DNA from: Dactylorhiza incarnata
Taxonomy: Eukaryota; Streptophyta; Magnoliopsida; Asparagales; Orchidaceae
NCBI GenBank assembly: GCA_033032865.1
Contig: JAWHQI010000074.1
Location: forward strand, 9,232,501-9,296,500
Length of the DNA: 64,000 nt
Direction: 5' to 3'
The notes beneath the pieces were generated by a model. That model saw only the letters and a list, made by a program, of their open reading frames with translations, was not told the DNA's origin and ran no database searches. The first letter of the stretch is position 1. The number at the start of each line of letters is the position of its first letter. The translations under genes and the position numbers were made by a program. Positions 6,146 through 63,872 of the stretch are shown here, piece after piece.

Positions 6146-6688
6146 TATTTATAGGCTTGGGGGCCTTCCCGATCGGGCAGGGATAAAATAACCTCCTGCC
6201 CGGGTACAGGAGAAACGGGCAGGCGGTGACGGGATACACAAAGAAGAGAAAGAAAGAGGCCGCGCGATCTGACGGCCTGCTTTCCCGACCTGTCTTGCTT
6301 GCGGCTGAGGACACTGGAACCAAGTCAATAATGCAGACCGCGCGGTTTGGAGATTGAGACCGCGGTCTGCCTTCTGGTCATGACTTAGCCGATTCTTCAA
6401 GAGGTAACTTGGATAGCCTTCGATCTGGAGCCCCGGCTTGTTCTTTGGGGCTGGAACTTCGAGTTTCTATGGGACAACCCGCGCGGCCTTCTGGCTGAGA
6501 CCGCGGATGAACTTCTTGCCTTGGCTCTTTGACGATCTTATCCCTTTGGGGGTGATCCGGAAATGACACCAGGCCGCCCGGCCTGGCCCTTCTTGAACTG
6601 AGAACCGCCGATCCCGGGACCCAGCGGCTTGGCCCAGGAGTCCGCGCGGTCTGATAATGGTTCAAACCGAGAAGCGGTTTTCCGGGCA
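6146..6688 (-). promoter_or_regulatory. E1 LTR U3: TATA box plus dyad cluster
   Basis: TATAAATA on the minus strand occupies 6146-6153. Upstream of it (6265-6688) lie repeats of a dyad of the form GCGGYYT-N8-AGACCGC. The clearest are near 6338 (GCGGTTT...AGACCGC) and 6483 (GCGGCCT...AGACCGC), with further GCGGTCT, CCGCGCGG and CCGCGGTC words to 6670. The GC-rich, CpG-rich block contrasts with the AT-rich flank. This is the promoter part of the 5' LTR. The same dyad is found in the Copia element E3. Confidence 0.7.
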
Positions 6689-6816
6689 AACAAAACAAAT
6701 GATTTAATCAAAAATACAAGACATATGCAGAGTAAAGTTCACAATAAAACACAAATAATTTTACTTCCACACACTTTAATGCACACAGAAAATGTACAAC
6801 TACCAAGGTGTTTTGC

Positions 6817-7040
6817 ACACACAATGCTCATTAAGACTTATCAGGGTGCAAGGTAGTGCTTGGGGGATCACACACTTTATTTTTCAATATTTATTTTTGT
6901 GATCCGGTGTACTTAAGAATAAGTGGTGTAAAAATAAAGGTTTGCACAAGACACTTTACTATTCTATCCAAGGTGCTCAACCTCACAACGCTTATTAAGA
7001 CTTATCAAGAGGTTCAAGTAGTGCTTGGTGGAGTTATCTT
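6817..7040 (-). repeat. Imperfect tandem duplication in the H tail
   Basis: Two units share a core (ATTAAGACTTATCA, then GTAGTGCTTGG), at about 6817-6873 and 6966-7040. The same pair is present in inverted orientation in H2 at about 55160-55430. Conservation in both copies shows the duplication predates their separation. Function unknown; it could be part of the LTR or packaging region. Confidence 0.55.
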
Positions 7041-7884
7041 TGTCAGTTTATTTCATGATTATTTTTTATACAAAGTTCTCTGAATACACTTGTTTTGCAA
7101 ACCAATGTAATTTTGAAAGCACAACTACTTTTCATAATTTTTAATTATGCAAATAAATGTACTGTAGGTAAGATACTTGTGCAAATTTAATTTGTTGTAC
7201 AATTATAATACACAAGCAAGCATTCTTGGATTAAAAACACATGTAGACTTTGCCAAAATAAGTGAGTGAATAAATATCATTATCAATCATAAAACATTTA
7301 CTCATACTTAGAGGCATGCTAAGCTTGGTTCTACACAACCTTTTTAATATATCAAAGCATGATAAAAACAATGTTCAAAGTAGTATGAACCGATGAATTG
7401 CAACATTATAGAAGTTCTAAATAATAGATAAAATCATGCTTGATTTTCACAATAAAGTCCATACAGTATTTTTGATATTTTTTTTAATTTGATTTAAAGT
7501 TTGAACTCTTAAAATTGATCTTGGACTTCCTGAGGTCTACCTTATGAGGGGTTCACCCGGTACTAGAATATGTGATGTGATGATAGCCCAAATCTCCTTT
7601 TTGCAAGATACATGTAAATAGAAAAGTTAAGTTCAAAAATAATTTTTGATACTTGTTTTTGTTTTATATTTTTGTATTTTATTTTTGCATATACACATAG
7701 AAATCAAACAAACCAAAGAAAGGAAGTAAGAAAAAATATTTTTTGTACTTTGGCTTTTATAATTTTGTATTTTAATTTTTCAAAAATCAATTAATGACAT
7801 AAATGCAAAAATGAGTAGTACATATAAACTAACATATTTTTATTGATTTTTCAGAATTTTAAAATTACAGAAAATCAGAAACTC

Positions 7885-7915
7885 GAGCTAGCACCGGCGC
7901 TAGCGCTAGCGCGAC
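7885..7915. repeat. Dyad cluster GCGCTAGCGCTAGCGC in H tail
   Basis: A short CpG-rich palindromic island (CTAGC, CCGGCGCTAGCGCTAGCGCG) in otherwise AT-rich DNA. The same words occur in the U3 part of H (25291-25512). Related GGCGGTA/GCTACCGC words occur in the H2 tail at 49043-49080 and 50455-50490. So the H family carries its dyads both in the LTR and in the noncoding tail. Confidence 0.6.
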
Positions 7916-9007
7916 AAACAGTACACTATTTTTTAAGATTTTGGAAATTCTGATTATTGATCTTGATTAAGTGTCCCAAGAGTAGTTTCATGCACAAATT
8001 TCAGAATTTTTGGAGATGTCTAGATAGTGCAAATTTGCATGAAATGTTAGCGATTTCTTATATGACATGACAACGCATGATATATATTTTCTTATATCTT
8101 CATTTAGATTTTTTAAGGCTTATATTTGTCAATTATGGTGTAAGTTGAAAATGATAGGAGATGTAAGCACAAGATATCAGTTCGAATAAGCCAAATAAGG
8201 ATAATTTAAATGATTAGTATGATGTTTATGCAAAGAATATCATGGATAAGCCCTATATAATAATACTCAGCCTGTATATATTGGTAAACATATAAAGCCT
8301 AACATAGACACAAATATTCTTTAGGTGACAATGTTAGTATGATAAGTTTGAGATTAATGTTATGCCAAAGTTTGATAGTGTTTCAACTTATAGACCTAGA
8401 ATGAAGTGAATATTCTATTTGATTTGATCTTATTGATATCAAGATGATTCTAAGGTCTAAACTTGAAATAAATCACAATACACACATAATACACCAACCA
8501 TGGTAAATAATTATAATATCAATTGTCATCATATAATTCATATACATGTGATAGAGATAGTTGTTTTAGATGATTTTTGATATGAATTATGATATATGAT
8601 TTTTAGAGAATTTTATCAAAGGACATCAATAGACCATGGTGGTGTGTGTGGCATTAGTATTTAAGGCACTTAATCTTTCAATATGTCTTTTGTGATTTTC
8701 TTTATAATTTAGATAAATATCTCATAACAATTTTAGAATTTGATTTATATGGATATTTATAGGCAATGAATATAAGAAAGACAGATCGGTCATCACAATA
8801 AAATATGATTTTGAATTTTGATCAATTTGATTTATAAACTCATTAAGTTTTAAGAGATAAAATCATATTTCCAAAAATATATAAGATGACTATAACATGA
8901 TAGCTTAAGAAATAAGAGAATAAAAAAAGACATTAAAGCATATCATGAAGTAGAAAATTTGTATATTTCATTTTTGAAAATATTCTACTTCATACATTTG
9001 GTGATAC

Positions 9008-9155: not shown

Positions 9156-9689
9156 GCGTCAAATAGTATTCGACGCAACGTCGAAATGTAGTCGACGTTT
9201 TCTTCAGGTTATGTCGAAGTAACTTTAGGAAGATTTCGACGTATGTGTTGTCGACGCTACTCTGATTTCTAGTCGACGCATATAGAGAAGTCGACGCACC
9301 TTAGTCGACGCACCTTAGTCGACGCACCTTCCTTATTCTTCTCTCGACGTCCAGCCAGGATGAATTCGACGCTTACGTCGAATAGTAATCGACGCACGTC
9401 GATTTATATGACAGATTTAAATATGCGCCAGATCTCTTTCCTTCTTTCAGTAGATCTAATTTACATGGAATAATGTTAATATTTTATAGCCGTTCTGAAT
9501 CATTCTTTCCTTCTATTTTGATTCTTGGCTAATCTGATAAAACTCATTATGGATATTATTTGAATTTGGAATGAATTCTTTCCTTCTATTGGTATGCTAA
9601 TTATAGAAACATTTCTATTTTTCAAATTCTCTGACTGCTAATTAATTATCCTCCTATAGCATTATTTTGAATACACAGAGCTATAAATA
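9156..9689 (+). promoter_or_regulatory. E2 U3: TCGACGC dyad cluster and TATA box
   Basis: 9156-9402 holds more than ten TCGACG/CGTCGA words, several as a 21-bp dyad with 7-bp arms and 7-bp spacer: GCGTCAA-N7-TCGACGC at 9156 and ACGTCGA-N7-TCGACGC near 9375. TATAAATA lies at 9682-9689, about 280 bp downstream. The cluster is CpG-rich in an AT-rich LTR. By position it is an enhancer-like part of the LTR promoter; the binding factor is unknown. Confidence 0.72.
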
Positions 9690-10395: not shown

Positions 10396-10470
10396 GGTCT
10401 AAAAAGGATAACTCCTTGATCAAAAGATTCTACCTCTTATATATATATATCTTCAAAACTATTTTTTTTC

Positions 10471-12838
10471 ATGGCACAAATCAAAGATTATGCTTCCACC
10501 AGACCACCAATGTGCAATCTGGAAAAGTTTGCAGTTTGGAAAACAAGAATCAGAATCTATATGAATTCCATTGATGCTGACTTGTTCAATATTACTGTAA
10601 CAGGTCCCCCAAAGCCTTATAGAAAGGATGCAAATGGCAATATCACACAAACACTTGTTCCAAGATCTGAATGGACAGAAGATGAGAAGAAGGCAAGAAC
10701 TCATGATCTAAAGGCCATGAACATACTTGTCTCAACTCTCTCAGATGACATCTTTCAAAAGGTTGTTGATTGTGAATCATCCAAAGAAATTTGGGATGCC
10801 CTCACAAAGATGGTGGAAGGAAGTGCTGATGAAAAGAAAGACAAGAAGGCCCTATTGATCTCTCAATATGAGAACTTTCAAAAGAAGGCTGAAGAAAGCA
10901 TCTCTGAAATGTATGACAGATTCAGTCTGATCATTAATCAACTAAGAGACTTGGATAGAGAAATCTCTCTCACTGAGATTAATGACAAATTGCTAATGAG
11001 TCTCCCTAGTTCATGGGACTCAAGAATATGGGCAATAAGAGACACAAGAGGACAAAAAGAGATCTCAACAGATGCTCTCTTAGGAAAACTCAGATCCTAT
11101 GAGCAATTGCTGAAAACTAGAGAAGGAAAGAAGAGAAAACACCTCAACTTCCTCAAAAGACAGGAACATTGCCTTAAAGGCAACATAAGAAGGGACTCCT
11201 GTCACTGAAGAAGAACTATTCAGTTTCCTAGCAAGAAGATTTAAGAGATGGGTCAAGACTGATGGATCAAAAAGGAGGGAGTCAAAACCAAGGTATGACA
11301 AAACCCCCACTAAAGAAATTATTTGCTATTCTTGCAGGAAACCTGGACACATTGCCCCAGAATGTCCAGAGAATGCTGAAACAGGAAAGGATCTGAAAAA
11401 GAAAGATCTGAAGAAAAAGGGGAAGAAGAAAGAAAGAGGCTTCATTGCAGAAGTCTGGAGTGAAACAAACTCTGAGGATAGTTCATCCTCTAAGAGTGAC
11501 AATGAAGAATCTAGGCAAGAAGACTTATGCTTGATGGCCCTTGAAGACTCAAAGAATGATGATAAATCATGGAGTGAAACAGGATCAGAAGAAAGCATAT
11601 CTTCTGATGATGAAAAAGAAAAGAACCTCATTCTCATTGAGGAATCTGAGGATGAGGATGAGGTAAGCATGTTTGATGAAATAGATTTTCAATGTGATGA
11701 CTTTAGAAATGATTTTATGGGAATGTATATAGATCAACTAAAAACAAAACAAGAAATCAAAGATCTAAAAGAACAAATTAACATGGTTAAGAACCAAAGT
11801 GATAAAGAGAAAATATGCTCAAAAGATTATGCACTAAAAGCTAAAGAAATAGAAAGGGCTAAAATAGAAAACCAGTTCCTTAAAGATAAAGTAATCCAGG
11901 CAAAGGCCTTTGAAGAATTAATAAAAATGAGAAGCCAAACACTTAAGGAAATCACTGAAAAACAAAAACTAAGACACAAGAATCTTGGGCTAGGGGCTGA
12001 TCCCTTAATCAGCCTAATTCCATCCAACAAACCTGCTTGGATGAGCCCTGTAAAATTCACTAAACCTGTTAATTTGTTAAACCCAGAAAAAGACCCACAG
12101 GAAGAAAACTCCTTCAAAGAAATAAAAGAATTGGATGAAACATCTTATTATTCAGCTGATGACTCACAAACTTCATCTGAAGAAACAATCAATCCAAGAA
12201 AAACAACACATAAAGGAGTAAAAATAGAGAAAGGCAAAATGAAAATTTGTGAAGGCACAGATGCGTCGACTTCATATCGACGCATGCACGATAGTGCGTC
12301 GACTTCTACTCAACGCAATCTCTCAGATGCTTCGATCTCTTCTAGACGGCTGAACAAAAGCACGTCGACTTCCAATCGACGCAACCTTTTTTATGCGTCG
12401 AAATCAGATCGACGCCATCTGGAGAAAGCGCCGAATACAAATTGACGCGACTATCAACATGCGTCGAATAGATATCGACGCACAAAAGTTCAGAGCAACT
12501 TAAATACCTTTCATCCAAAACCCTTTCACCCTAACCTCCATTCAGGACCCATTCATCCTGATCATGATCAACATCTCTATTCTAACCAAAATTTCTACCC
12601 AAAACTTAGTAAACAAAATTCTCATCCTAATTTCTTTCATAACCATAGTTTCTATCCAAAACAAAACTTCCATCCTAAACAAAGATTCTATCAAATTCAA
12701 GACTCTTATTCTAATCAATACCACCATCCCTATCTAAACTCAAACTTTCAAAATCTCAAAATACTCAAATGTTGTATATGCAACAAAAATGGCCACCTTG
12801 CCAAACAATGTTGGTATAATCAATCAAACTATCTATAA
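10471..12838 (+). pseudogene. gag: E2 gag (two zinc knuckles, broken)
   Basis: Starts MAQIKDYAS; residues 1-220 form a Copia-type (UBN2-like) gag domain. The frame shifts once near 11135, then meets TAA at 11186-11188. The first CCHC knuckle (CYSCRKPGHIAPEC) is at 11324. A long acidic and coiled-coil-like part follows (11531-12120). TGA at 12443-12445 ends the visible frame but falls where a dyad repeat should read CGA, so it looks like a CpG-deamination stop. The same frame then continues with His/Asn/Tyr-rich sequence to a second knuckle (CICNKNGHLAKQC, about 12776) and ends at 12838. Two knuckles are also seen in gag of E4. Confidence 0.85.
12263..12482 (+). repeat. Dyad cluster inside E2 gag coding sequence
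   Basis: Five well-formed copies of the 21-bp dyad GCGTCGA-N7-TCGACGC (or one change from it), at about 12263, 12297, 12361, 12394 and 12461, plus weaker ones. The length is exactly seven codons and the phase is constant, so the protein gains the repeat ASTSYRR/ASTSTQR/ASKSDRR. The same dyad is in the U3 of the LTRs. Confidence 0.85.
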
Positions 12839-12929
12839 AATCTAGTCTTAGGCTGACTTAGAAAACTTTAGGATCAGGAAGAGACAACAAGAAATAAGAA
12901 CATAGAGTGGTTCTGAAAAACCAAAAGTC

Positions 12930-13196
12930 ACGTCGACTTCTAATCGACGCACCGTCGATGACTCAGATTAACAGTTGTAATCGGCGCATGCGTCGACTAC
13001 TATCGACGCATACGTCGATAGGAAACCCTATCATACCAAATCAGACCATATCGACGTTCACGTCGAATTCCACTCGCCGTAACGTCGACTTCATGATAAA
13101 GAGCGGCAACATTAGAATATTTTCGGTCACATCCACTGGAGTACCGAAAAAGCCTCGAATTGAGCCCTGTCTCGACGTTTCACCTGGCTTAAAAAG
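12930..13196 (+). promoter_or_regulatory. E2 internal promoter-like module before ORF2
   Basis: 12930-13090 repeats the same TCGACG/CGTCGA dyads as the LTR, with a last word at 13171. A TATA-like CTTAAAAAG follows at 13188-13196, 92 bp before the ORF2 start. No open frame spans this part. The arrangement copies that of the LTR promoter and suggests separate transcription of ORF2. The TATA-like box is weak, so this is inference by analogy with E4. Confidence 0.5.
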
Positions 13197-13287
13197 ACTC
13201 TTCAGAAACCTCCACTACTCTGCATCTTTTATCCTTCGTGCTCCTTTGTCCAGCTGATTCTTCTTGCTTCTCTCTCACTGATCTTCA

Positions 13288-15005
13288 ATGGCTCCCAAAA
13301 TAAATTCTGGGTTCGACATCGATCTTGAATCCTTCCAAGCAGCAGCAGAGAACTATAAAAGCATCATTGATCTCTTCACTGAAGCAGGACTGAACAAGCT
13401 CATCTCCACTAGGTGCAAGCTCCTGGAAACTGAGCTCACTGAGCTCATAACTCATGTTCAGATTTCTGAACAAGGAGAAATCCAAGGAACACTCTATGAG
13501 ACACCAGTCTCAATCTCAGCAGACCACATTAGGGCCACCTTTGATCTTCCATCAGGTATATCCTACTATCATCTTAGTTTAAAAGAAATAAGGATAGACA
13601 ATGAGTTTCTAAAAGAATGATTAAACAAGTCTTGATTATTCCCTTATTAGGGGATGAATCCATTGAACTCACACCTGATGAAGTCAAGCATTTACTTACC
13701 ACCATGAAATTCTCAAAAGATAGACCAATCCATCTGAAAAAGGTAGACTTTTCTGATGAATATAGGCTGCTGGCTGATATAGTAGGGAAAGTTCTACTGT
13801 GCAAGATCTCAGCACATGATGCAGTACCAAAACAACAACTGAACATCATGGGGGCCCTTGTGTTGAAGAAGAAGGTAGACTGGGCCACATGGCTACTCAA
13901 GATGATAGGCTCTAAATACTCTCACAAAGAGAATGCCTACATGAGAATGATGAGTCAAGTACTGTTCCATTCCTTCCCTAACCTATGTAGGTCAAAAGGA
14001 ATTCCCATCCCTCTAGGAAAAAGGATGTCCATAGCCCTATTTTCTAAATGGGCCAGGCAAATCCCTAAGCCTGGTTCCATCCCTGAAAGGACTCCATCTC
14101 CTCCTATCTCTCCTGCTCATCCTACTCCTCCTCCTCCTTCTCAAACAGTCACATCTTCTGTACCTTCTTCATCCACAAAAATACCACCTCAATCACATGC
14201 CCAAGTCTCATCTATTCCTCCACCTCCTCCATCAAATATATCTCCTCAAGATGATAGAATCCCCTCTCCACATACATCATCTCCTCATCCTCCACCATCT
14301 GCATCCACTGAGGCTCTACTCACTCAGTGCATCCAATCTACAGCCCAAAAATTTCAGGCAATGCTAGATGAGCATTGCTCCCAGATTCATTCCTCCATCC
14401 TTCACATGCACACCCAAATAGATGGGGTCAGTGCCTCTGTGCAAGATCTAAAGTCGTCTCTCTCTTCCTCTAGAGTGACTAGGTCTTTCTTAACCTCCTT
14501 GGCCAAGGAGGTCAAGAAGGGGGAGAATCTAGATGAAGATCAGCTCTCCAATCCTAAATCTCCTTCTCACAAATCCCTTCCTACCTCAAAAACTGACAGT
14601 CTAGCACTGCTCAAAACCCTTGGGAATGAGATAGTACCTGAGCTCCATATTGATGAACAAATAATAGAGATACTCAACATAGCAAGAGATGCTGCAAATC
14701 AAATGACACCACTACAGGGCGAAGTAAGCAGAGCAGTGAATGAGGCTGAAAATGAAGCTGGTACAAATCTAGATGGAAATGAACTAGCTGATGGAACTGA
14801 GAAAGGAAATGAAGCTGATACTGGAAAAGAAAAAGATATTATGTTGGCTGAAGAAGAAAGAATAAAAGGAGCTCTATCCCAGGGGGAGCTACCTGCTCAG
14901 GGGGAGCTAAATGAACTTCTTACAAGTGGGAAAGAGAAATCCTCCTCTCCTCAAACATTAGTATTCAAGAGAAAAAGAAAGACTCCTCCTACCCCACCTG
15001 AGTAG
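13288..15005 (+). pseudogene. E2 ORF2: accessory (env-position) protein, one frameshift
   Basis: Two frames overlap by ATGA at 13617-13620 (110 and 462 codons), so one indel splits a protein of about 570 residues. The N-terminal 250 residues look globular (LLADIVGKVLLCKISAHDAV near 170). A Pro/Ser-rich linker (about 270-350), a possible coiled coil (about 350-400) and an acidic C-terminus with a basic end (KRKRKTPP) follow. It aligns with ORF2 of E4 (LLSDIVGMAILCKPGSHD). It holds the place of the env-like ORF of SIRE-type Copia elements, but I see no signal peptide or membrane segment. It may be a nuclear or nucleic-acid-binding protein; function unknown. ATG 13288 is chosen because E4 also starts MAPK. 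Confidence 0.75.
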
Positions 15006-15189: not shown

Positions 15190-16490
15190 TGTTGGGGAAA
15201 TGATTTCTCTTAACCCCTAGAAATGAGTTAAAGAAAGAGTTTTATGAATGAAAAACAAGACTAAGTAAATATGCGTCGAATAGTATTCGACGCAACGTCG
15301 AAATGTAGTCGACATTTTCTTCAGGTTATGTCGAAGTAACTTTAGGAAGATTTCGACGTATGTGTTGTCGACGCTACTCTGATTTCTAGTCGATGCATAT
15401 AGAGAAGTCGACGCACCTTAGTCGACGCACCTTCCTTATTCTTCTCTCGACGTCCAGCCAGGATGAATTCGACGCTTACGTCGAATAGTAATCGACGCAC
15501 GTCGATTTATATGACAGATTTAAATATGCGCCAGATCTCTTTCCTTCTTTCAGTAGATCTAATTTACATGGAATAATGTTAATATTTTATAGCCGTTCTG
15601 AATCATTCTTTCCTTCTATTTTGATTCTTGGCTAATCTGATAAAACTCATTATGGATATTATTTGAATTTGGAATGAATTCTTTCCTTCTATTGGTATGC
15701 TAATTATAGAAACATTTCTATTTTTCAAATTCTCTGACTGCTAATTAATTATCCTCCTATAGCATTATTTTGAATACACAGAGCTATAAATAAAGAGGAG
15801 GTCGGCAGAAAATAAATAAGTTGAGTGATCTACCACATACATTTTGAAATAGAGGAAAAGCTCCCAAAAGAAAAGAGAGATATTGTCAAACAGCTCTGCA
15901 GCAACAATCTGAAATCTCCCTGCTGCAAACTCTGATTGCTCTCACTAAAAGAGAGAAAGGCTACAAATCTTCTTCTCTCTATAGAAGAAAGATTTAATTC
16001 ACTTCTTGTGCTTCCAATCTTATTGATAGGAAGAAGATTCATTATTGTTTCTTTCTTTCTTTCTTACTTAAATATTGTAAAAGAGTTTTTAGAATCTCTC
16101 TTCAAAAAATTCAGTGTACTGGTTCTAAGAGTCTCCTTGTCAAAAGACTCAGTTGGTTCTAAGAGTCTCCTTGTCAAAAGACTCAGGGTGGTTCTAAGAG
16201 TCTCCTTATCAAAAGACTCAGTGCAAGATAGTGAATTCCTACCAAGGGGGTAGAAGAGTGGACTACCCAAAGTTTGGGGAACCACTATATTTTCTTGTGT
16301 TGTGCTGTGATTTTCTCTCTTGCATTTACTTTAATTACTTGTCTAATTCTTGTTGGTGTGTGGGAAGCTCTAATCTGTGATCATACACATATATATATTA
16401 ACTCAGCACAAAATATTTTAAATCTCTATTCACCCCCCCCCCCCCCCCCCCCCTCTAGAGAATTCTAGTGAGGTTAACTGTGCACTTTCA
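15190..16490 (+). repeat. E2 3' LTR
   Basis: Nearly identical to the 5' LTR. Dyad cluster at 15273-15506 (one 14-bp unit fewer), TATAAATA at 15785-15792, three hairpin units at 16121-16222, and 21 C at 16433-16453. Several point differences are CpG transitions (TCGACG to TCGACA, TCGACG to TCGATG). Confidence 0.93.
16433..16453 (+). repeat. Run of 21 C in the E2 3' LTR
   Basis: The 5' LTR has 7 C at the same site. Long C runs are also at 47035-47057 (H2 LTR, homologous site) and 53621-53643 (S). Either slippage expansion or an assembly or read artefact. Confidence 0.8.
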
Positions 16491-18586: not shown

Positions 18587-19772
18587 TGTTAAATTTTTGA
18601 AGTGGAAGTGGATTTGAGCTGGGCGGTCTGCGGATTGGAGACCGCGGAGTCCGCGCGGTCTGCGTTGGTTCTCTGGTCAGTTTTGTCTCAGTAGTTTGTT
18701 CTGAGCGGTCTGATCTGGGAGACCGCCTCTTCTGTCCGGGTGGCTTACGCGGGTTGGTCAGGCGACTTGTCCTAAGTCAGCCAGATGTTCTTGGTCTGCC
18801 TTCTTGCAGTGACCGGGCGGTCTGATGACTATTCTAGTCAGTCTGGTTACTGAAGGAGTTCTTTGCTTTACAATAAGACCGGGCAGTCTGCTTATTGAGA
18901 TCGCGGTGACCGGGTGGTTTGGTTATAACTACAAGGTCTAATAAAGGAGTTGTGAGCTATGTCGAGCTCGGGCAGTCTACTTTGCGAGACCGCTCGCGAT
19001 CTGATGGGCGTTTATTGTATCCCGGTTGTGTGGTGATGACATCCGTCTACCTGCCAATAAATAGGGGTGCAGGGCCCGTCATTAATAACAAGAACTGTAA
19101 GAACTCAAAGTTGGCTTGATTGTGTCGGTCTCACTTTGAGGGCGTGCGGTTTGAGATTATTGTCTGACCGGTTTCTGTGTTCGCAGGTTAGTGGCTTGCA
19201 GCTCGCGGTCAGCTTCTCTCCCTTCTTCCAGCTTTGAATAAACTAGTCCAGGCGGACTGTGTTTATGTGTTCGTGGTCTGTGCAGCAGACTCAGTTGATC
19301 AGGCGATCTTGAGTTACAGTCTGTCGCAGGTTGCAGTTCTTCATTCAGAGTTCGCGGGTTCTTCCTTGATCAAGACCGTGCGGTCTGGGCGATCAAGAAG
19401 TGCGAACTGTTTGTTTTCAGCAGTGGAATAAAGCAGCAAGTTGGTGGTCTGTGGTTGCGATATGGAAGGTGCAGTCTGTACTCTATTCGCGTGGTCTCAG
19501 CGGCTTCCGTCCGGCTTGTTCTGTTCACGCGGTCTGGCGGTCTCAAGTGCCTGGTCGCGGCAGCTTGTTTTGCACTTGTGTTTTGTGCTTCTCTCCTCCT
19601 TGATTCTTATGAATCATGTCTCGCCATGTATACCTCGCATTGTAAAGAGATAGTTAATGTCATAGTACTATTCGTTCTTCTCATTATCACTGTTGTGCTA
19701 CACTTTTGAAAGGTTTTGTGAAGTGTGTTCCGCATATTTCTCACTTTATCTCCGGACCTCAAGTTTGTAACA
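18587..19772 (+). repeat. E3 5' LTR
   Basis: TGTTAAATTT ... GTAACA. Compared with the 3' LTR it has lost several CpGs in dyads (GCGGT to GTAGT, GTCGG to GTCAG), and its TATA box region reads CAATAAATA (19056-19064) where the 3' LTR reads CTATAAATA. GC-rich GGTCTG words continue downstream of the TATA position to about 19560. Confidence 0.92.
18622..19064 (+). promoter_or_regulatory. E3 U3: GCGGTCT-N8-AGACCGC dyad cluster and TATA position
   Basis: GCGGTCT and AGACCGC arms are spaced by 8-9 bp at about 18623 (N9), 18708 and later, with degraded forms to 19000. The same cluster is in the 3' LTR at 23962-24335, with good dyads near 24045, 24227 and 24312. A 7-bp-arm dyad read by a dimeric DNA-binding protein would fit. 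E1, a gypsy element, has the same arms and spacing. Confidence 0.72.
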
Positions 19773-23932: not shown

Positions 23933-25129
23933 ATTTTTGAAGTGGAAGTGGATTTGAGCTGGGCGGTCTGCGGATTGGAGACCGCAGAGACCGCGCGGTC
24001 TGCGTTGGTTCTCTGGTCGGTTTTGTCTCAGCGGTTTGTTCTGAGCGGTCTAATCTGGGAGACCGCCTCTTCTGTCTGGGCGGCTTACGCGGGTTGGTCT
24101 GGCGACTTGTCCTAAGTCGGCCAGATGTTCTTGGTCTGCCTTCTTGCAGTGACCGGGCGGTCTGACGACTATTCTAGTCGGTCTAGTTACTGAAGACGTT
24201 CTTTGCTTTGCAATAAGGCCGGGCGGTCTGCTTATTGAGACCGCGGTGACCGAGCGGTTTGATTGTAATCGCAAGGTTTAATAAAGGATCTGTGAGCTAT
24301 GCCGAGCTCGGGCGGTCTGCTTTGCGAGACTGCTCACGATCTGATGGATGATTATTGTATCCCGATTGTGCGGTGACGACATCCGTCTACCCGCCTATAA
24401 ATAGGGGTGCAGGGCCCGTCATTAATAATGAGAACTATAAGAACTCAAAGTTGGCTTGATTGTGCCGGTCTCACTTTGAGGTCGTGCGGTCTGAGATTAT
24501 TGTCTGACCGGTTTCTGTGTTTGCAGGTTAGTGGCTTGCAGCTCGCGGTCAGCTTGTCTCCCTTCTTCTAGCTTTGAATAAACCAGTCCGGGCGGACTGT
24601 GTTTAGGTGTTCGCGGTATGTGCAGTGGACTCAGTTGATTAGGCGGTCTTAAGTGACCAGGCGATCTTGAGTTGCAGTCTGTCGCAGGTTGCAGTTCTTC
24701 ATTCAGAGTTTGCGGGTTCTTCTTTAATCAAGACCGTGCGGTCTGGGCGATCAAGAAGTGCGAACTGTTTGTTTTCAGCAGAGGTATAAAGCAGCAAGTT
24801 GGCGGTCTGTGGTTGTGTTCTGGTAGGTGCAGTCTGTACTCTGTTCGCACGGTCTCAGCGCCTTCCGTCCGGCTTGTTCTATTCGCGCGGTCTGGCGGTC
24901 TCAAGTGCCAGGTCGCTGCAGCTTGTTATACACTTGTGTTTTGTGCTTCTCTCCTCCGTGATTCTTATGAATCATGTCTCGCCATGTATACCTCACATTG
25001 TAAAGAGATAGTTAATGTCATAGTACTATTCGTTCTTCTCATTATCACTGTTGTGCTACACTTTTGAAAGGTTTTGTGAAGTGTGTTCCGCATATTTCTC
25101 ACTTTATCTCCAGACCTTAAGTTTTAACA
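23927..25129 (+). repeat. E3 3' LTR
   Basis: Direct repeat of 18587-19772. Dyad cluster 23962-24335; intact TATAAATA at 24396-24403; ends TTTTAACA. The downstream GGTCTG-rich stretch includes a short expansion near 24640-24670 absent from the 5' copy. Apparent ORFs of 60-130 codons here also occur in the 5' LTR and have no protein signature. Confidence 0.92.
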
Positions 25130-25922: not shown

Positions 25923-26643
25923 TGGCTGTAACTTTTGAAGGGAGTTATAACACTTTACAAGATGGAAAGGGAAAAGAATATGTTGTTCTTCTCTTTCTAA
26001 GAAGACTCTAGAGATCCAGATAGTGTTGTTGAGATTGGATCTTTGAAGATGATGTTGAAGAGATCCCCCTGTCTGATTGAAATTGATGACAGCTTGTGGA
26101 GGCTTCTTCTCCTGATTATAAATACTCCTTTTCTTCTTCTGCAGTTTGATTCTGAGCAAATGATATTGATTGGTGTCTCAGGATAAATATGTTCTGCAGA
26201 GAAGAGTTAGCAAAAAGAAGATAGATAGATAGATAAAATATATTGTTCTTATAAAGAACTCTGCTGATGTATTCTTCTTTTTGCTTCTCTGTTTTTCTCC
26301 TGTATCTTTCCTTGTTTATTCTTCCTGGTTCTTCCTATTCTCTCATTCTTCTTCTCTGCTCTTCTCCTTTTGTATATATTCTGGAGAAGGCTTCAGGGCT
26401 GATTTGAATTCTTGCCCGACAAGGAAAGAGATAATATCTCTTTAATTTCCTCGAGCAGACAAATTCTCGTCTTTGTCTTTTCTGCCAACGGCTATAATAT
26501 TTAATGTTGCAACGACTATAATATTAATTCATAAAGAAGACTGACAACAATAAATAGCAATATATAAAATAGAAATTAATCAAGAATATTGCTGAGAATA
26601 TTAGATGAGCTGAGAAAGGAGAAATATAATTGTTGATGATAAT

Positions 26644-26886
26644 TTCGTCGAGCTCAGCTTCAATGTTGGTCGATCTGATTATTTAATTCATCGTTCTGAG
26701 CTTCTGCTGAATATTCGTCGAACGCAGATTTGAGATCGTCGAACACAGCTTTTAGTCGACCGCTGAGACGAGCTGTATTTTGTCGACCGCTGAGATGGGA
26801 TGGATTTCGTCGACCGCTGAGACAGGATCGTCGACCGCTGAGATAGCTGTTCTTCGAACGCAGATAGTCGTTCGTCGAACCCAGAG
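26644..26886 (-). promoter_or_regulatory. E5 U3 cluster: TTTCGTCGACCGCTGAGAC
   Basis: Four to five direct copies of CGTCGACCGCTGAGAC, flanked by TTCGTCGAAC words; the same in the other LTR at 29552-29794. The two word types are those of E4: CGCTGAGAC occurs in the E4 LTR and TTCGTCGAAC in the E4 internal cluster. It lies about 260 bp upstream of the minus-strand TATA-like box. Confidence 0.65.
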
Positions 26887-28484: not shown

Positions 28485-29928
28485 TGAAAGTGAGGTTAGA
28501 TCTTAAATTAACTCTTTTTGGGTATTTCAAAATAGTGATATATAGATATGTGTAATGCTGAGTGAGTTATAAAATACTGAATAAATAAAGAAATCAGCAA
28601 CAAATCACAGCAAAATAATCACTTCACAGACGACACAAAGATATATAGTAGTTCCCCACTAAACCTGGGTGCATCTACTCTTCTACCACACTTGATAGGA
28701 ATCCACTACATGTTGTTGATCAGGTGCCCTGCCACCAAGGGAGTTTTGATCAGGTGTCCACACACTAAGTGAGCTTTTGATCAGGTGCTCTAACCAATCT
28801 ACAGGTTTTAGATCAGGTGCCCTGCCACCAATGGCTATAACTTTTGAAGGGAGTTATAACCCTTTACAAAATGGAAAGGGAAAAGAATATGTTGTTCTTC
28901 TCTTTCTAAGAAGACTCTAGAGATCCAGATGGTGTTGTTGAGATTGGATCTTTGAAGATGATGTTGAAGAGTTCCCCCTGTCTGATAGAAATTGATGACA
29001 GCTTGTGGAGGCTTCTTCTCCTGATTGTAAATACTCCTTTTCTTCTTCTGCAGTTTGATCCTGAGCAAAGGATATTGATTGGTGTCTCAGGATAAATATG
29101 TTCTGCAGAGAAGAGTTAGCAAAAAGAAGATAGATAGATAGATAAAATATATTGTTCTTATAAAGAACTCTGCTGATGTATTCTTCTTTTTGCTTCTCTG
29201 TTTTTCTCCTGTATCTTTCCTTGTTTATTCTTCCTAGTTCTTCCTATTCTCTAGTTCTTCTTCTCTGCTCTTCTCTTCTTGTATATATTCTGGAGAAGGG
29301 TTCAGGGCTGACTTGAATTCTTGCCCGACAAGGAAAGAGATAATATCTCTTTAATTTCCTCGAGCAGACAAATTTCCGTCTTTGTCTTTTCTGCCAACGG
29401 CTATAATATTTAATGCTGCAATGGCTATAATATTAATTCATAAAGAAGACGGGCAGCAATAAATAGCAATATATAAAATAGAAATTAATCAAGAATATTG
29501 TTGAGAATATTAGATGAGCTGAGAAAGGAGAAATATAATTGCTGATGATAATTTCGTCGAGCTCAGCTTCAAGTTCGTCGATCTGATTATTTAATTCATC
29601 GTTCCGAGCTTCTGCTGAATATTCGTCGAACGCAGACTTGAGATCATCGAACACAGCTTTTCATCGACCACTGAGATGAGCTGGATTTCGTCGACCGCTG
29701 AGACGGGCTGGATTTCGTTGACCGCTGAGACGGGAACGTCGACCGCAGAGATAGTTGTTCTTAGAACGCAGATAGCCATTCGTCGAACCCAGAGAACATG
29801 TCTAATTTATATATATATATATTATTTTCTCCTATCTCCTGTATTAATGGAATTTGATCTAAGTTATACAAGATGTGTTATGACCATAAAGATGGATCCT
29901 AACTCAAATCAATACTAAGGTTCCAACA
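28485..29928 (-). repeat. E5 5' LTR
   Basis: TGAAAGTGAGG ... TTCCAACA on the + strand, direct repeat of 25576-27020. Cluster 29552-29794; hairpin units 28717-28831. Confidence 0.9.
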
Positions 29929-36600: not shown

Positions 36601-36696
36601 TTCTTTTGAGTTACAGGTCGCTGAGTCGTAGGGGAGAAGGGTTTGTCTCGCCGGCTAGGTTGAAGGAAAGTGTGATATTTTAATCAATCATTAAGC

Positions 36697-36704
36697 TATT
36701 TATA
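36697..36704 (-). promoter_or_regulatory. Internal TATA box of E4 ORF2
   Basis: TATAAATA on the minus strand (context CATATAAATAGC), 97 bp upstream of the ORF2 ATG and about 90 bp downstream of the dyad cluster. This spacing equals that of an RNA polymerase II promoter with a short 5' untranslated region and indicates separate ORF2 transcription. Confidence 0.6.
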
Positions 36705-36793
36705 TGGCTTAAGACTTAGGTAAAATTAAACCTACTAATTGAATTTGATTGTTCTTATAATTGTAAGTTTAAATGAAACTTATGTCATAAGGC

Positions 36794-43235: not shown

Positions 43236-44491
43236 TGAAAGAACTTAGGGGTTTAGATTAATTCACCTAGAGGGGGGAGAATAGGTTTTTCTTATTTCTT
43301 TTAAGCTTAGAGTTGTTAGTAGCCAAATATGCCTACACAACCAATAAATTCAAGCTCAAAGAATCACAGCCACAACACAAAGGATTTTATAGTGGTTCCC
43401 CAAGTGATGGGTAGTCCACGGTCCCCCTACACCCATCTAACTCCAATGTTAGATAGGGTCAAAGATACTCCTTCAAGTTATCTTCTCAGCTTTTAGAGCT
43501 TACACCACAAGTTCCTCAGAACTTCTCAGATATCAGATGAACCTTCCTCAGGACAATAGTCCCTACAGCTCAGAGCTATTACTAGCTCCTACCTTAGGCA
43601 TAGCAGCCCTACAACTCAGAGGAATCCTCCTCCTACAACTCAGACCACCTCCTGGTCCTACTTCAGACAACACCCTTTTTCAACCTTCTCAGAGCTGATA
43701 GCTCTTACAAAATAAAGATATAATAGAATGAAAACCTCTACTACTGATTCAATCTTATCAATAGAATATTTCAGCAGATGCTGATTTTGAGCTGATCCTG
43801 GACAGGTTGGTTCAGAGCAGCTCTAATGTCTTCTTCGTCAGAAGGAAGAAAGAAGACTTCTATCTCTCTTGATGATGAAGGCTTGAATCTCTGCAAGAGA
43901 GAACAACTTCTGTTCAAGGCAGGAAGGTTGTTGCAGCTTCAGGAATTTGCATCCGGCTTTCTTTTCAGCTTGAACAACTTTTCAAAGATGAAGGAGGAGT
44001 TCTCTTTGTTGCCCTATCTTTAGCTTTTATAGTACTGTACATCTTCAACGACTATAAGCACGACCTCCCTTGCCCATGCCAATAAAGGCATTACTTTATC
44101 ACTTTTTGCGCCTTTATTAAATTCTGGGCGGCGCCAGTCAACGGGAAATATATTTGATTTAGTCTCAGCAGATCCACTGAGATGGCTCCTTGTCTCAGTG
44201 GATTAACAGCTGACACAGTCTTCTTCTCAGTGGTTGGCACAAGCTGAGACAACTACTCCTTTACAGTGGTTCTGCTGAGATGGCTCCTCGTCTCAGCGGT
44301 TCAGCTGAGACAGATCTCCATCTCTTAGGAGTTGATTTCTCCTGATCTTAGGTCATGATTGGCCCTTTCTCTTTGAGTCACCTAAGCCTGTGTATCTTAC
44401 AAAAACATGGCTTTATCAAATACATCTTGTACTTAGCATTGCAAAGTGCCCCCTCTTCAAATCAAGGGAATTTGAGGGCAAATTCCCAACA
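43236..44491 (-). repeat. E4 5' LTR
   Basis: Direct repeat of 32140-33418. Minus-strand CTATAAAA at 44025-44032. Its dyad cluster (44162-44313) has CG changed to CA or TG at nearly every site relative to the 3' LTR, while sequence outside the cluster is far better conserved. Confidence 0.93.
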
Positions 44492-45450: not shown

Positions 45451-47080
45451 GTTGACAGTTTCAACCGATATGACAATGAATTGCTTATTTTATAACATTT
45501 GATAAAAATATTTCTAAACTCATTTATTCTTATTCACAACTTTTGAGAACTTGAGATTTTTTTTTTAAAAAGTGTGATTCTCTCTGTAGGAACTGAGTAA
45601 TTAAAGGAATTTGGCTCACAAAAAAATGTTGGAACATGCTTTCCACATCTCTTGGTTTGAGAATAACAATTCCCATTGTATTTGATCATACTTGTCAATT
45701 ATTTATAGTGTGCAGGAACTTCATCTCTCAAGCCCCCATGAGTACAAAAAAGAAAGATGACAATCCTCTATCATTACGAAGCTATGTTGCTATCATGGCG
45801 CATTAACGCTACCACTGGTGGTAGCTTCTACATACTTTGAAATATCGTCGAGATGGCAATATCGTCGAGATCGAAATATCGATGTGACTCATATATAACA
45901 AGTTCTACCGCGGCGCGTTAACGCTATCGCTGGCGATAAAATAAGCATATTTGGAAACAGCGTCGAGATGGAAATATCATCGAGAAAGGAATGTCGATGG
46001 GACTCTGATATAACAAGTTCTACCGTGACGTGTTAAGGATAACGCTCGGCGGTAACTTATGGAAGTCCCTCCATCACGTTGTTGATTGAGGAGAAAAAGA
46101 GGAAGGAGATCCGACGGTAAGAAAAGATATATCGCTAATGCGGTGCGTTAGGATTACCGCAATGCGGTAGGAGGGGTGCCAGTTTTGGAGAAAGAATGTT
46201 CAATAAGATGACTCAATCTGTATGCCAGCCTATTTCCTAAAGAGGATACCGCCTGGCAGTAGCTCTACCGTTGGCGCTAGGATCCGAGTCTATTTAAAGA
46301 GTGGCCCTCCTCCTTTTTGTGGTGTTGAATAACGACGAATCAAAAGCTATAACTCCTGAACTTTCTTGAGAGTCTCCTCCCTGCAGCCAAGAGAACTCGA
46401 TCAACTCTTGTGAACGCTAAGAACTTGAAGATAGATCAATCACGCATACATCATCTTCAAGTTCAACATTTGAGGAAGTTTTTGATGTTTTAGTTTTTAT
46501 TATTAAATGTAACTCTTATCTTTTGTCGAATGAGAAATTTGCCTGTGGTTGTCGACTAGGGCCTTGTGAGGACTAAGGAGAATTTGTTGCACGGGTGTGG
46601 CGACTAGGTCTAGGGTTAGATCTAAGGGGAGGCTTGAGGCCTCATCTGGGAGAGATAGGCTAGAGCCAACCGGTTCTTGGGGAAAAGGTCGGTATAGAAA
46701 ACCAAACAGGTTTTTACATTCACCTTTATTCCAAGTGTCATTGGGATTAAGTTTTGTAATCATGTTTAAAGCAATAATATTAACTTTTTCTCTATGATTG
46801 ACTTGTTATCTCTGATCTTTGAAATCTAAACGAAAAGGAGTTTTTTGTCACTAACGCTGAGCGGTAACTTCTACTGCTGGTGGTAGCAACAGAGTCTCCA
46901 TCTCTCTTGCTTTGTGCAATACAGTTTCATAAAAAGCTTACACCATTGTCTTGACTGAAATATTTTCAAAAATATATTCAACTTATTTGTATAGTTTCAC
47001 CGAAGCTTTGAAAAGTTTTAAAACCCTTATTCCACCCCCCCCCCCCCCCCCCCCCCCTTAGAGCGCCTATAGATCCATCA
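45451..47080 (+). repeat. H2 5' LTR (left edge unresolved)
   Basis: Ends ...GATCCATCA at 47080, before a PBS. U3 words GCGTTAACGC, GGTGGTAGC and GGCGGTA cluster at 45799-46275; TATTTAAA at 46291-46298 serves as TATA box; R-U5 shares CCCTAGTCG/CGACTAGG and GAGGCCTCAT-type sequence with the H LTR. TGTTGGAAC at 45628 could be the start. 45451-45627 is AT-rich and unassigned. Confidence 0.6.
47035..47057 (+). repeat. Run of 23 C in the H2 LTR
   Basis: At the place where H, E2 and E4 LTRs have 5-7 C (TTCACCCCCCTCTA). Expansion or artefact. Confidence 0.8.
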
Positions 47081-52547: not shown

Positions 52548-53385
52548 GTCGACGGGAAAAGATTTATCAAAGTCGACGGGAAGCTAACAAAATCGACGGG
52601 AAACCTTATAGAAAAGTCAACTGGAAGACTGCTCGATCGACGGGAAGTCTTAAGAAAAAGTCAACTGGAAACACTTTAGAAAAGTCGACTGGAAGACTGC
52701 CCGGTCGACGGGAAGACTTAAGAAAAAGTTGAATGGAAACACTTTAGAAAAGTCGACTGGAAGACTTCCCGATCGACGGGAAGACTTAAGAAAAAGTCAA
52801 CTAGAAACACTTTAGAAAAGTCGACTGGAAACTCAAGTCATAATCAACGGGAAATCTTTACTTAAAATCGACGGGAAAGCTTATATAACATCGACGGGAA
52901 AAGACTAACTAATAATAGAATGGAAGGTTTACTTATAATCGACGGGAAGAGTCTTCAAAATAGACGGGAAGATTTGACTCAATCGACGGGAAGATCATAG
53001 ACAAGTCCATGGGAAGGATACAAACAAGTCGACGGAAAGGACTAAATTCAAGTCGACGGGAAGAGTTGTAACATAATCGACGGGAAAGCTTACAATAAAT
53101 CGACAGGAAGCTTACTCGATATTGACGGGAAAAGGTCAAGTCATAATCGATTGGAAGCTTACAAAATAATCGACGAGAAGATTATATATCAATCGATAGG
53201 AAAGGACTTAAGACAAAAGCATTGGCTGGAAGAGAGCCCGATCGACGGGACGGGAGCCCGATCGACGGGATGGAGGGACGATCGATGGGTGTCCCATCAA
53301 TTTTTACTTAGAAAATTCAACGAACATGACCTCTCTGCCCGCTCCCGTCGATCGATGGGAAGGGGTGCCGATCGACGGGACGGGA
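52548..53385 (-). promoter_or_regulatory. TCGACGGGAAG cluster in S
   Basis: More than 25 copies of TCGACGGGAA or one-step variants (TCGACTGGAA, TCAACTGGAA), spaced about 15-35 bp, mostly direct. A dyad form TCCCGTCGA-TCGATGGGA is at about 53344. CpG loss explains many variants. A minus-strand TATA-like box (ATTATATAAG) near 54150 would place it inside the transcript, unlike in the other elements. Confidence 0.75.
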
Positions 53386-61872: not shown

Positions 61873-61925
61873 ATAATCTACTTGTTCTTGATTATAATAA
61901 TTATTATTATAATTATTAGCCCCGT

Positions 61926-62165
61926 GATATGTTTTTTTTTCTCTGTGATTGCTCTCTCTCTTTGAAAGAGAGAAGAAAGAGAAGAAAGCTCTTTCTTTCT
62001 TTTCGATTCAACCTTGGGCGGACGTTTTCGAAGAGTCCCGCGAGTAATTCTACTTTGAGGAATTACCCGTTATCCTATCGAAGGATAGAAGTAACGGACT
62101 CTTTCTCTTTCGAAATATCGAGGATTACTCCTCGGTCGCGTCCTTCGAAGGCTAAATGAAAAGAT
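61926..62165. other. Junction replacing gag N-terminus, rich in small palindromes
   Basis: gag homology stops near 61925. The next 240 bp hold adjacent hairpins: GTAATTC...GAATTAC (about 62044-62067), TATCC-TATCGA-AGGATA (about 62071-62086) and CGAGGATTACTCCTCG (62120-62135). No coding signal. It may be a breakpoint insertion or part of the element leader. Confidence 0.45.
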
Positions 62166-63400
62166 TGAAAAAGGGCTTTGCTTTATGTTGAAATTAAAAT
62201 TGAAAGCTTTTTGAAAATATTATTGCAACAATTTTTTGAGTAGTTGCAACAATTCTTTAAGAGCGTTTTAAAACTTCTTTTACCTTGAGCTAGTTGCAAC
62301 AACCAAAGAGGTGTTGCAACAAATTTTTTAGTGTTTTTAAAAGAGAGTTTTAAAAAGTGCTTTAGAGAGAAAGCTTTTGGGTTTATGTAATTATCCGGAC
62401 TAAAATCAATAAAGGCAAGTGGACCTTATCGATAGTAGTATAGGATATTTCTTTTGAATATCAAGGTCGTATTTTTCCAAGGTCGTATCGATTATTTCTA
62501 CTTCTTAGGAACGCGCTATTATTTTATCGAAAAGAGTTTGAAATTGATTTTTATGATTTTATAGAAAAGTTAGTGACGAAAAAGATAACTATCGCGGGCT
62601 TGGTGTGCGTTTAGCAAAAACCAAGAAAAGCGATGAAAAGAAAAAGAACGAAAACGTTAATTTAAAAAGTAGTTTTGCTTAGAATTTTTTAGGGTTTTAT
62701 AAAACGATAATGATAACTACGGCGATAATAAGCGATTGAGCGGGTAGCGGAATTAAGCAAAAAGCAATTATATTAAAAACAAAAGACGCACTAATTGAAA
62801 ACGCACACACTCTACAGAATTAAAATGAAAGCTGTAAATTGCAGAAATTAAAGAAATGCGATCCCTACCCAAATAGGTAGAGGGGAAATAAATGCGTGAG
62901 CAAGTCCTATCCAAACGGATAGGCGGGAAATAAATGCGTGACGGAAATGGAAACTATTCGATTACAAAAAAGGCGCAAACTTTATACTCATACACACACC
63001 CACTCTACGTTAATGAAATCTAATTAAAATAAAACAAATCTAAACTCATACACTCACACACACTAATATGAAATCATCTAAAAATTACAACAAAACTAAA
63101 AACAAGAAAATTACACTCATACACACACACACCCAAATTAAAATGGACAAAACTAATTGAAATAACAAAATCTAAATTAAAAGAAAAAAAACAAAAAGAG
63201 AACACACACACACTTTCACAAGAACAAAGAGAGAGTTACAAAAAACAAGCAAATTTTATTTCATTTTCATCATAAAAAGGGTTACAAAACATGAGAGAGA
63301 AAATGCAAAAAGAGAGCTAAAACATGAAAACAGCAAAAATTGGTCCACAATCTTAAGAAAAGGTCTCAAAATTCTGAACCCTTAGACTCAGCTGAATCTG
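62166..63400 (-). other. A leader and LTR R-U5 region
   Basis: AT-rich, no ORF. In the minus direction it follows the TATA box and should be transcribed leader. GGGAAATAAATGCGTGA occurs twice (about 62884 and 62927), and TTGCAACA words repeat at 62222-62320. The LTR inner border and PBS were not identified. Confidence 0.5.
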
Positions 63401-63402
63401 GC

Positions 63403-63872
63403 TATTTATAGAAAAAAATTTGGAATTACACGCCCTCGGACACGGGCGTGACATGGCTTGGGGTGCGAATAGCCAGAACAGCTGGATCCAGGCAGGTATT
63501 TGGAAGGCTTGACCGGCGACTTGGAAGTACACGGGCGTGTTCCAGGGAACACGGGCGTGTTCGATGTCGGCATTGTGCTGTCGGTTGCTGGGCATGACGG
63601 GCGGCGTGTCCTTTGTTCTTCTGGAAGGAATTGAGGGTCACGGGCGTGTCTGAAATGTCACGGCCGTGACTTTGATTTTTTTGGATGAAATGCTTCAAGT
63701 GGCTGGAATCTGGGATGGATATCCAACACGGGCGTGACCATGGTACACGGCCTCGGTCACGGGCGTGACCGAGGGCGTGACTTGATGTTTGAGTTGGAAA
63801 AAGAACAGAGAAAAGAAAATGTTAGGGATTAGTGAACACGCCCTTGGACACGGGCGTGACCTAGGGCGTGAC
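63403..63872 (-). promoter_or_regulatory. A LTR U3: TATA box and CACGGGCGTG dyad cluster
   Basis: TATAAATA on the minus strand at 63403-63410. Directly upstream (63428-63872) are at least ten CACGGGCGTG(AC) words, the best GGTCACGGGCGTGACC near 63755, with the half-site AGGGCGTGAC between. Same layout as E1, E2, E3 and E4 although the element is unrelated. Confidence 0.75.

Follow-up and report, generated by a model that had tools for sequence, protein, structure and literature searches.

The closest described counterpart of the system examined here is the repeated motif of Sireviruses. In the available parts of Bousios et al. (2010; PMC2829016), palindromic repeated motifs are placed in the long terminal repeats (LTRs) of these elements, just above a conserved TATA box that lies on average 37 bp past the motif-bounded CpG island, and env-bearing Sireviruses are given a second motif cluster before env, whose internal promoter is not conclusively identified there. 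The same parts present the motif as specific to Sireviruses and absent from the classic elements compared, within a Ty1/copia element set, with Tnd-1 as the one exception to a CGG-CCG core. Two further systems, likewise cited from the available text of their sources, offer parallels for how such words may be read: the VANDAL elements, in whose noncoding DNA short family-specific motifs are clustered (PMC5735166, PMC10398659), and the ONSEN and EVADE LTRs, which are activated by the host factors HSFA2 and WRKY (PMC12786077).

Here, we analyzed a stretch of 64,000 nucleotides of the orchid Dactylorhiza incarnata (contig JAWHQI010000074.1, positions 9,232,501 to 9,296,500; hereafter the window, numbered from 1), which is made of nested plant LTR retrotransposons. 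Arrays of short CpG-containing words occur in their LTRs and, in two elements, also before an extra open reading frame (ORF). The elements E1 and E4, and in part E3, have the architecture already described as the Sirevirus repeated motif, a link absent from the earlier note on this DNA (the original prediction). What is new, relative to the available parts of PMC2829016, is that the same layout is found in E2, a copia element that is probably not a Sirevirus, and in two gypsy elements, G and A.

Word arrays in the retrotransposons of the window

The elements bore their labels in the original prediction without coordinates, and their mapping to the following loci was inferred.

E1: 9073-16490, + strand, gag and an extra ORF upstream of the 3' LTR
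E2: 18587-25129, + strand, copia, with the polypurine tract (PPT) joined straight to TG
E3: 25576-29928, − strand, short, with PPT and primer-binding site (PBS) and no internal ORF of 200 aa
E4: 32140-44491, − strand, gag, pol and a degenerate env-like region
E5: about 45.6-48.5 kb, + strand, decayed Sirevirus-like copy with poly-C and PBS-like sequence
G: left end of the window, − strand, gypsy, two RNase H domains
A: about 57.8-64 kb, − strand, gypsy, which we take to be Athila-like from its gag and reverse transcriptase (RT) features; RT-like ORFs and gypsy-type integrase pieces (in Pfam, rve and Integrase_H2C2 only)

Paired LTRs, PBS and PPT are present in E1, E2 and E4. The 5-bp target duplications are exact in these three (CCAAA, ATGAT and ACCTT, respectively), and that of E3 matches at four of five positions. 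No pol was found in E1. S, the site of a further array, is unclassified, and the lineage names given to the other elements are provisional. The arrays are listed below with their matches against the mean of 200 dinucleotide-preserving shuffles, for words picked by eye after inspection.

6257..6680, − strand: G, U3 array of AGACCGC/GCGGTCT half-sites, 7 matches to GCGGTCTG against 0.54
9170..9402, + strand: E1 5' LTR, U3 array of TCGACG(CA) with the composite CGTCGA-N7-TCGACG, 11 against 0.49 (14 exact TCGACG)
12264..13178, + strand: E1 internal array, word as in the E1 LTR, 15 against 0.89 (19 exact TCGACG)
15274..15497, + strand: E1 3' LTR, U3 array, 9 against 0.43
18587..19772, + strand: E2 5' LTR (with the ATGAT duplication and LTR termini), GCGGTCT array, 18 against 1.25
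23963..24901, + strand: E2 3' LTR, GCGGTCT/AGACCGC array flanking a TATA box on both sides, 23 against 1.20
26643..26885, − strand: E3 LTR, U3 array of GTCGACCGCTGAGA and TTCGTCGAAC, 5 against 0.04
29659..29830, − strand: E3 second LTR, matching array, 5 against 0.03
33065..33240, − strand: E4 3' LTR, U3 array of CCGCTGAGAC with inverted partner GTCTCAGCGG, 10 against 0.36
36795..37253, − strand: E4 internal array (H of the original prediction), GAGTTCGACGAACTC dyads between pol and the env-like ORF, 16 against 0.07
44040..44491, − strand: E4 5' LTR, U3 array as in the 3' LTR, 9 against 0.28
45842..46001, + strand: E5 LTR, TCGTCGAGAT-type words, 4 against 0.34
52549..53381, + strand: S, direct array of TCGACGGGAA, mostly spaced by about 18-24 bp, 31 against 2.25 (29 of 31 in the same orientation)
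63429..63870, − strand: A, U3 array of CACGCCCGTG, 12 against 0.56

The word clusters are real. As the original prediction had claimed, the counts lie far above the shuffles in E1, E2, E3, E4, the E4 internal array, G, S and A, E5 being weak. An 8-mer scan made without preselection returned 112 clustered words, 50 of which contain CG (three shuffles gave 3, 0 and 3), many of the non-CG words stemming from minisatellites. When TRF arrays were hidden and 7-mers clustered within 500 bp were counted, the array regions, which make up 14.6% of the window, held 12 CG and 2 non-CG words of the 16 with at least six copies, the 2 others, both non-CG, being elsewhere; with at least five copies, the arrays held 20 CG and 4 non-CG words against 0 and 9 elsewhere, and with at least four copies 29 and 5 against 2 and 42. 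In the number of 7-mers repeated at least three times, ten arrays surpass their own shuffles 3- to 32-fold, while the ratio is 1.1-1.4 in four of six control regions, the remaining two having 15 against 9.0 and, at 7700-8300, where a GCGCTAGCGC repeat lies, 21 against 9.2. The observed/expected CpG ratio exceeds 1 in 9 of the 14 array regions and is 0.50 in the rest of the window. It reaches 1.64 (5' LTR), 1.58 and 1.37 in E1, 1.82 and 1.63 in E3, 1.69 in E5, 1.52 in S, 1.19 in the E4 internal array and 1.06 in A, and stands at 0.99 and 0.90 in E2, 0.90 in G, and 0.71 and 0.37 in the 3' and 5' LTRs of E4; CpG enrichment of the arrays is thus common, not universal. A further cluster of GAGCGGAACG at 57040-57200 (6 against 0.25; CpG ratio 0.86; outside the 9 of 14) was dropped from the list since its GAGCGGA words, at 57048-57178, lie within a tandem repeat of 25-bp units located 3' of the A integrase.

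The sequence around the words points to spacers that are unrelated to one another, with 0.11-0.33 bits per position in the flanks of E1, E2, G, the E4 LTR, S and A; this is less clear in the E4 internal array (0.64) and E5 (0.62), and the 1.1-1.9 bits found within words arise partly by construction, matches being preselected. As for orientation, the inverted repeats described as usual hold for E1, E4, the E4 internal array and A and do not hold for S, and the counts of perfect 7-bp arms in E2, E3, E5, G and S come close to, or stay under, the background average of 2.2 per 500 bp (largest window 38). In the E1 5' LTR, 11 of 14 words share one orientation and the most frequent class of half-site pair stands at P 0.023 against the permutation maximum, a maximum that is not beaten in either LTR of E2 (P 0.10-0.23), the E4 5' LTR (0.18) or A (0.09). 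The E1 internal array, which spans from the end of the gag-type frame to upstream of the extra ORF (ATG 13288), has five 13-bp inverted half-site pairs, a maximum matched in 0 of 2,000 permutations, and all 18 occurrences of CGTCGA-N7-TCGACG in the window (at most two mismatches; 0.41 expected) fall within E1. Seven units of this internal array recur at a 33-bp period (at most two mismatches) at the end of the gag-type frame. Within 12264-12480, the 33-bp repeat also encodes an 11-residue repeat (like ASTSxxRR) with the DNA word in each unit, and this part is possibly a dual-coding array.

Relation to the Sirevirus repeated motif

By their sequence signatures, E1, E3 and E4 are Sirevirus-type copia elements. 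All three have the PPT AGGGGGAG, then AT, then the TG of the LTR, with the junction AGGGGGAGAT followed by TGTTGG. Copies of the PPT lie upstream of the 3' LTR in E1 (14518, 14881, 14899, 15180) and in E4 (33421, 34607, 35398, 35446, the last three 1.2-2 kb off), with one more in E4 pol at 38319, and the poly-C integrase signal is found near the LTR end at 10330 in E1 (5' LTR only) and at 32172 and 43268 in E4. E5 is probably a Sirevirus too. The eight families of the original prediction thereby shrink to about four lineages plus the unclassified S, since E1, E3, E4 and probably E5 belong together and the E4 internal array, there counted apart, is part of E4.

E2 was considered as a Sirevirus and rejected: its AGGGGGAG, at 23919-23926, abuts TG directly, its pol ORF enters the 3' LTR, leaving no 3' extra ORF, and no poly-C match was found in its LTRs. 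On this evidence, E2 is best regarded as a non-Sirevirus copia element. G and A lie outside Sireviruses by their gypsy domains. G encodes, at 1623-3062 on the − strand, RT, RT_RNaseH_2 and a separate RVT_3, and by this additional RNase H it is a probable Tat-type gypsy. For Athila or Tat LTRs, we found no report of CpG dyad arrays among the titles and abstract openings of the top-ranked open-licence papers, in a search that did not extend to Tork.

As in the available account of the Sirevirus motif, E1 and E4 have many CpG palindromic words in a CpG-rich upper LTR, above the TATA box, with a word that differs between elements. At least eight copies of one palindromic word are present in E1 and E4, and E3, which fits in part, has five copies per LTR of a longer word. 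Both E1 and E4 also have extra copies before the env-like ORF (E1 12931-13178, ATG 13288; E4 36795-37253, ATG 36600). Several features depart from that account, as far as its available parts go: the layout extends here to a copia outside the Sireviruses and to G and A, both of them gypsy; E4 uses two words where the paper gives one for LTR and linker per element; and the CGG-CCG core, present in the E4 LTR (CAGCGG..CCGCTG) and by half in E3 (GACCGC), is missing from the E1 word and the E4 internal word. Of the patterns of the 13 published Sirevirus words, four were tried, one of which covers two. Neither CACCGGACTGTCCGGTG, the published word of the maize Sirevirus palindrome clusters (Bousios 2016 as cited in PMC10760457, PMC5311732), nor AGCGGTASTACCGCT occurs in the window at up to three mismatches. 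CGGTCWGACCG (12 against 4.14) and CGGTCGACCG (17 against 4.59) do at up to two, none exactly, so that the resemblance is one of half-sites only.

Words common to copia and gypsy elements

The original prediction held that the word differs between most families, as in a private code. To compare them, the six best 7-mers of each array were counted in the other arrays against expectation, and several sets proved to be shared. E2 words occur 17 times in G (0.5 expected) and G words 38 times in E2 (0.9). E4 words are found in E3 (16 against 0.4) and more weakly in E2 (8 against 1.3), E3 words in E4 (9 against 0.3) and its internal array (9 against 0.6), and E1 words in S (15 against 1.1), E3 (6 against 0.8) and the E4 internal array (9 against 1.1), with no sharing seen for A and E5 words. 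The difference between families is therefore contradicted for E2 with G, E3 with E4 and its internal array, and E1 with S, and with it the notion of private codes. It may be mentioned that one LTR of E3 holds words found apart in the E4 LTR and the E4 internal array, as if co-regulated with an E4-like partner.

In the case of E2 and G, the LTRs are otherwise unalignable: among the BLAST matches listed, the best are 12-15 bp long and are mostly words or the TATA box. Both use AGACCGC half-sites, in back-to-back (-+7) and facing (+-15) pairs. G, which has 12 half-sites (at most one mismatch) in 6000-6700, one of them (6079) past the TATA box, contains three back-to-back and two facing pairs (permutation P 0.0001 and 0.0017). 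The back-to-back form AGACCGCGCGGTCT occurs 11 times in the window at up to two mismatches (0.03 expected), and facing half-sites at 8 bp also 11 times at up to three mismatches (0.70 expected); every one of these matches falls within E2 or G, and only E2 has exact ones (one and three, respectively). Since E2 and G belong to different superfamilies, such sharing indicates a common reader, or convergence on one, rather than private codes. The layout of array and TATA box is, as in the original prediction, found in copia (E2) and gypsy elements (G and A) alike.

TATA boxes and a candidate internal promoter

The sequence STATAAATAR occurs nine times in the window (0.90 expected). Five of these have an array about 20-280 bp above them, namely those in G, both E1 LTRs, the E2 3' LTR and A, and the other four (33575, 45181, 45699, 49274) do not.

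6145-6154: TATA box of G
9681-9690: TATA box of the E1 5' LTR
15784-15793: TATA box of the E1 3' LTR
24395-24404: TATA box of the E2 3' LTR, CTATAAATAG
46291: TATA-like sequence of E5, TATTTAAAG
63402-63411: TATA box of A
36598..36705, − strand: candidate internal promoter of E4, ATATAAATAG (36696-36705) and the ATG (36600) of the env-like ORF

The E4 LTR array has CTATAAAAG downstream and, in the 3' LTR, TATAAAAG at about 32936. An array upstream of a TATA or TATA-like box, as originally described, is hence found in G, E1, the E2 3' LTR, A, E4, the E4 internal array and E5; E3 has only weak TATATA-like runs below its array, and none was found in the E2 5' LTR. Along the − strand, the internal array of E4 (37253-36795) is followed by ATATAAATAG (36705-36696) and then by the ATG (36600). 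With a TATA box between internal array and ORF, where the available parts of PMC2829016 had no conclusive internal promoter, E4 offers a specific candidate for the promoter from which the env-like gene would be transcribed.

The extra ORFs downstream of these internal arrays raise the question of whether an element could itself encode the reader of its words. That of E1 was searched as two separate frames.

13282..15005, + strand: extra (env-like) ORF of E1, in two overlapping frames, the second of which matches protein P0001

In a comparison of just these two sequences, the start of the E4 env-like ORF resembles that of E1 at 29% over a length of 90 aa (E 1e-6). Ahead of the corresponding ORF start, the orchid gene model P0122 has three RRTE, one RRPE and one HRTK, residues that, judged from the protein letters, could be a translated CGACGAACTGA-like array. 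By analogy with VANC, a nuclear protein from the Sirevirus extra 3' ORF would bind the words of its family, both in the LTR and ahead of the gene that encodes it, and lift silencing. E1 has indeed one word in its LTRs and directly before the extra ORF. No direct match of the E1 ORF to Transposase_32 (PF20167) was found; P0001 matches it weakly (26.2 bits, the Pfam cut-off being 45). Of the six orchid relatives of P0001, five also match, likewise short of the cut-off; the protein database nonetheless assigns PF20167 to P0001. In the available text of the sources, a 3' extra ORF of sunflower Athila elements has partial PF20167 similarity and a predicted nuclear localization signal (PMC11728184), Retand antisense ORFs have a domain said probably to bind DNA (PMC11963269), and VANC target motifs vary among related transposable elements (PMC5735166). 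However, the internal word of E4 is unlike its LTR word, E2 has an array though its pol ORF leaves no room in that place for an extra ORF, and one word is common to E2 and G despite their different superfamilies. The motifs given for VANC in PMC5735166 (YAGTATTAY; AGTTGTCC/AGTTGTAC) are, moreover, without CpG, and those of VANC21 share one orientation, a layout similar only to that of S, the other arrays being mixed or inverted; an element-encoded reader was shown for VANDALs, whereas one here is only conjectural. We consider a self-encoded reader improbable for the arrays at large, with E1 as the element for which it may still hold and E4 as a weaker case.

Possible readers of the words

The explanation that we favor, with somewhat better than an even chance of being right, is that the arrays act as homotypic enhancer clusters and that host dimeric factors, the most economical reader, recognize them in double-stranded DNA. 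They would enhance LTR promoters and, in Sireviruses, also a putative internal promoter upstream of the extra 3' ORF. A single word would serve as half-site or full site of a dimeric host DNA-binding factor, recruited cooperatively by many copies beside the TATA box, with AGACCGC, CCGCTGAGAC, TCGACGCA and CACGCCCGTG as candidate target words. The words would turn over by local duplication and be kept, CpGs included, in lineages still transposing, while copies would be silenced after insertion and their word CpGs decay as methylated CpGs do. What is inferred here is that proteins bind the words, that their reader comes from the host, that the CpGs are methylated and that the arrays enhance transcription. 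Of the two mechanisms put forward in the original prediction, the half that invoked enhancer words for host dimeric factors is the better supported, given the dyads and paired half-sites, their place above TATA boxes, the unrelated spacers and the grammar common to E2 and G. ONSEN with its heat elements and EVADE with its W-boxes offer, in the available parts of PMC12786077, a likeness in that sites for host factors in LTRs drive transcription.

Several observations weigh against this explanation. The words of ONSEN and EVADE, as given in those parts, match known host factors, whereas a factor for the words here is presumed. The pair classes common to E2 and G were picked after both had been viewed, and G has only five exact half-sites and no special pair free of mismatches. 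Tandem duplication makes up part of the E4 internal array, S, E3 and E5, which overlap TRF arrays, an 11-copy 21-bp array and longer periods in the case of E4. Finally, in the LTR pairs of E1-E4, the only ones used and all from this one window, non-CpG word sites changed no less (15 of 365) than non-CpG sites outside words (125 of 4,461; P 0.15), and no purifying selection after insertion is seen. On the side of the explanation, CpG sites in words changed less often (27 of 184, 25 by transition) than other LTR CpGs (40 of 164), with a Fisher P of 0.029 that is biased, since sites enter the word class only where one copy or more has kept the match. Word CpGs would accordingly seem to change like methylated CpGs, somewhat less than other CpGs, and of the 28 substitutions in the E4 internal array, 15 (11 transitions) hit CpG, which accounts for 4 of the 15 positions. 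As no selection is seen after insertion, the high CpG density of the words must come from the active lineage. The lack of constraint on non-CpG word sites slightly lowers our confidence in host factors as readers and raises that in a self-encoded reader and in arrays devoid of function.

Arrays devoid of function would have arisen in stretches of the LTR through gene conversion and slippage of the minisatellite type, with words repeated by chance. The TRF overlaps just mentioned, the 33-bp period of the seven E1 units and the unconstrained non-CpG positions are all consistent with such an origin. It fits poorly with the concentration of CpG words in array regions after TRF masking and with the irregular spacing and unrelated flanks in the E1 U3, E2, G, E4 and A, and it leaves the position above TATA boxes and the common word of non-alignable LTRs unexplained, which makes it unlikely in our view.

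A function at the RNA level also has to be considered, in which the dyads would fold in the element RNA for packaging or reverse transcription, or yield small interfering RNAs for host silencing. Predicted folding energies of arrays or array parts were compared with 25 shuffles, and most arrays fold better than these: z is -9.6 and -4.8 in the E1 internal array, -5.9 in part of the E4 internal array, -5.0 in the E4 U3, -4.5 in part of S, -4.0 in the E1 U3 and -3.1 in part of E2. Palindrome clusters are also where small RNAs map in the Sireviruses of maize, and these clusters are, like those here, LTR cis-region palindromes with strong predicted folding, as far as this is cited from Bousios 2016 in the available parts of PMC10760457 and PMC5311732. 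On the other side, z is 0.04 in E3, -1.5 in G and -2.2 in A, one of six controls having reached -2.3, and one specific word recurs across units rather than any palindrome. Arm changes are also informative here: across 19 copies in the E4 internal array, 22 are one-sided (15 break the pair and 7 leave G-U, by manual count) and 2 are two-sided with pairing kept. Such a predominance of one-sided changes speaks for a reader that recognizes the word in double-stranded DNA rather than for a folded RNA, to which we give a small chance of accounting for the arrays. The counts are cells rather than independent events, six being of one A-to-T type, and to that extent this support for DNA recognition is itself weakened.

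A broader scheme would combine host and element readers: different superfamilies would run on a small shared set of host-read CpG dyad words, of which the Sirevirus motifs would be one case, and in addition a nuclear protein from the extra ORF would act on its own family through the Sirevirus internal arrays, as VANC does for VANDALs. This we hold to be doubtful as a whole. If words such as AGACCGC/GCGGTCT are common to copia and gypsy LTRs, several unrelated families could be activated together by a single host factor, and if the sharing of words is true, what awakens plant retrotransposons becomes testable with few oligonucleotides.

Other features of the window

No relatives of the pol genes of E4, G and E2 or of the integrase piece of A were found among viral contigs, the 6 and 3 pattern-matching stretches obtained in two scans being non-relatives. 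E5 contains a 115-bp duplication, and its gag region is 70% identical to the gag of an older element interrupted by E1, and perhaps also by E2. A candidate array of GCGCTA words was noticed at 25130-25575 (seven words, 25294-25475) and near 7900 (four words, 7897-7912), and these stretches may be LTR pieces of the older interrupted element. A minisatellite of about five copies of an 82-83 bp unit (51660-52106) lies directly left of the S array, and a reverse-transcriptase fragment (RVT_1), apparently of a non-LTR element, is found at 55734-56360.

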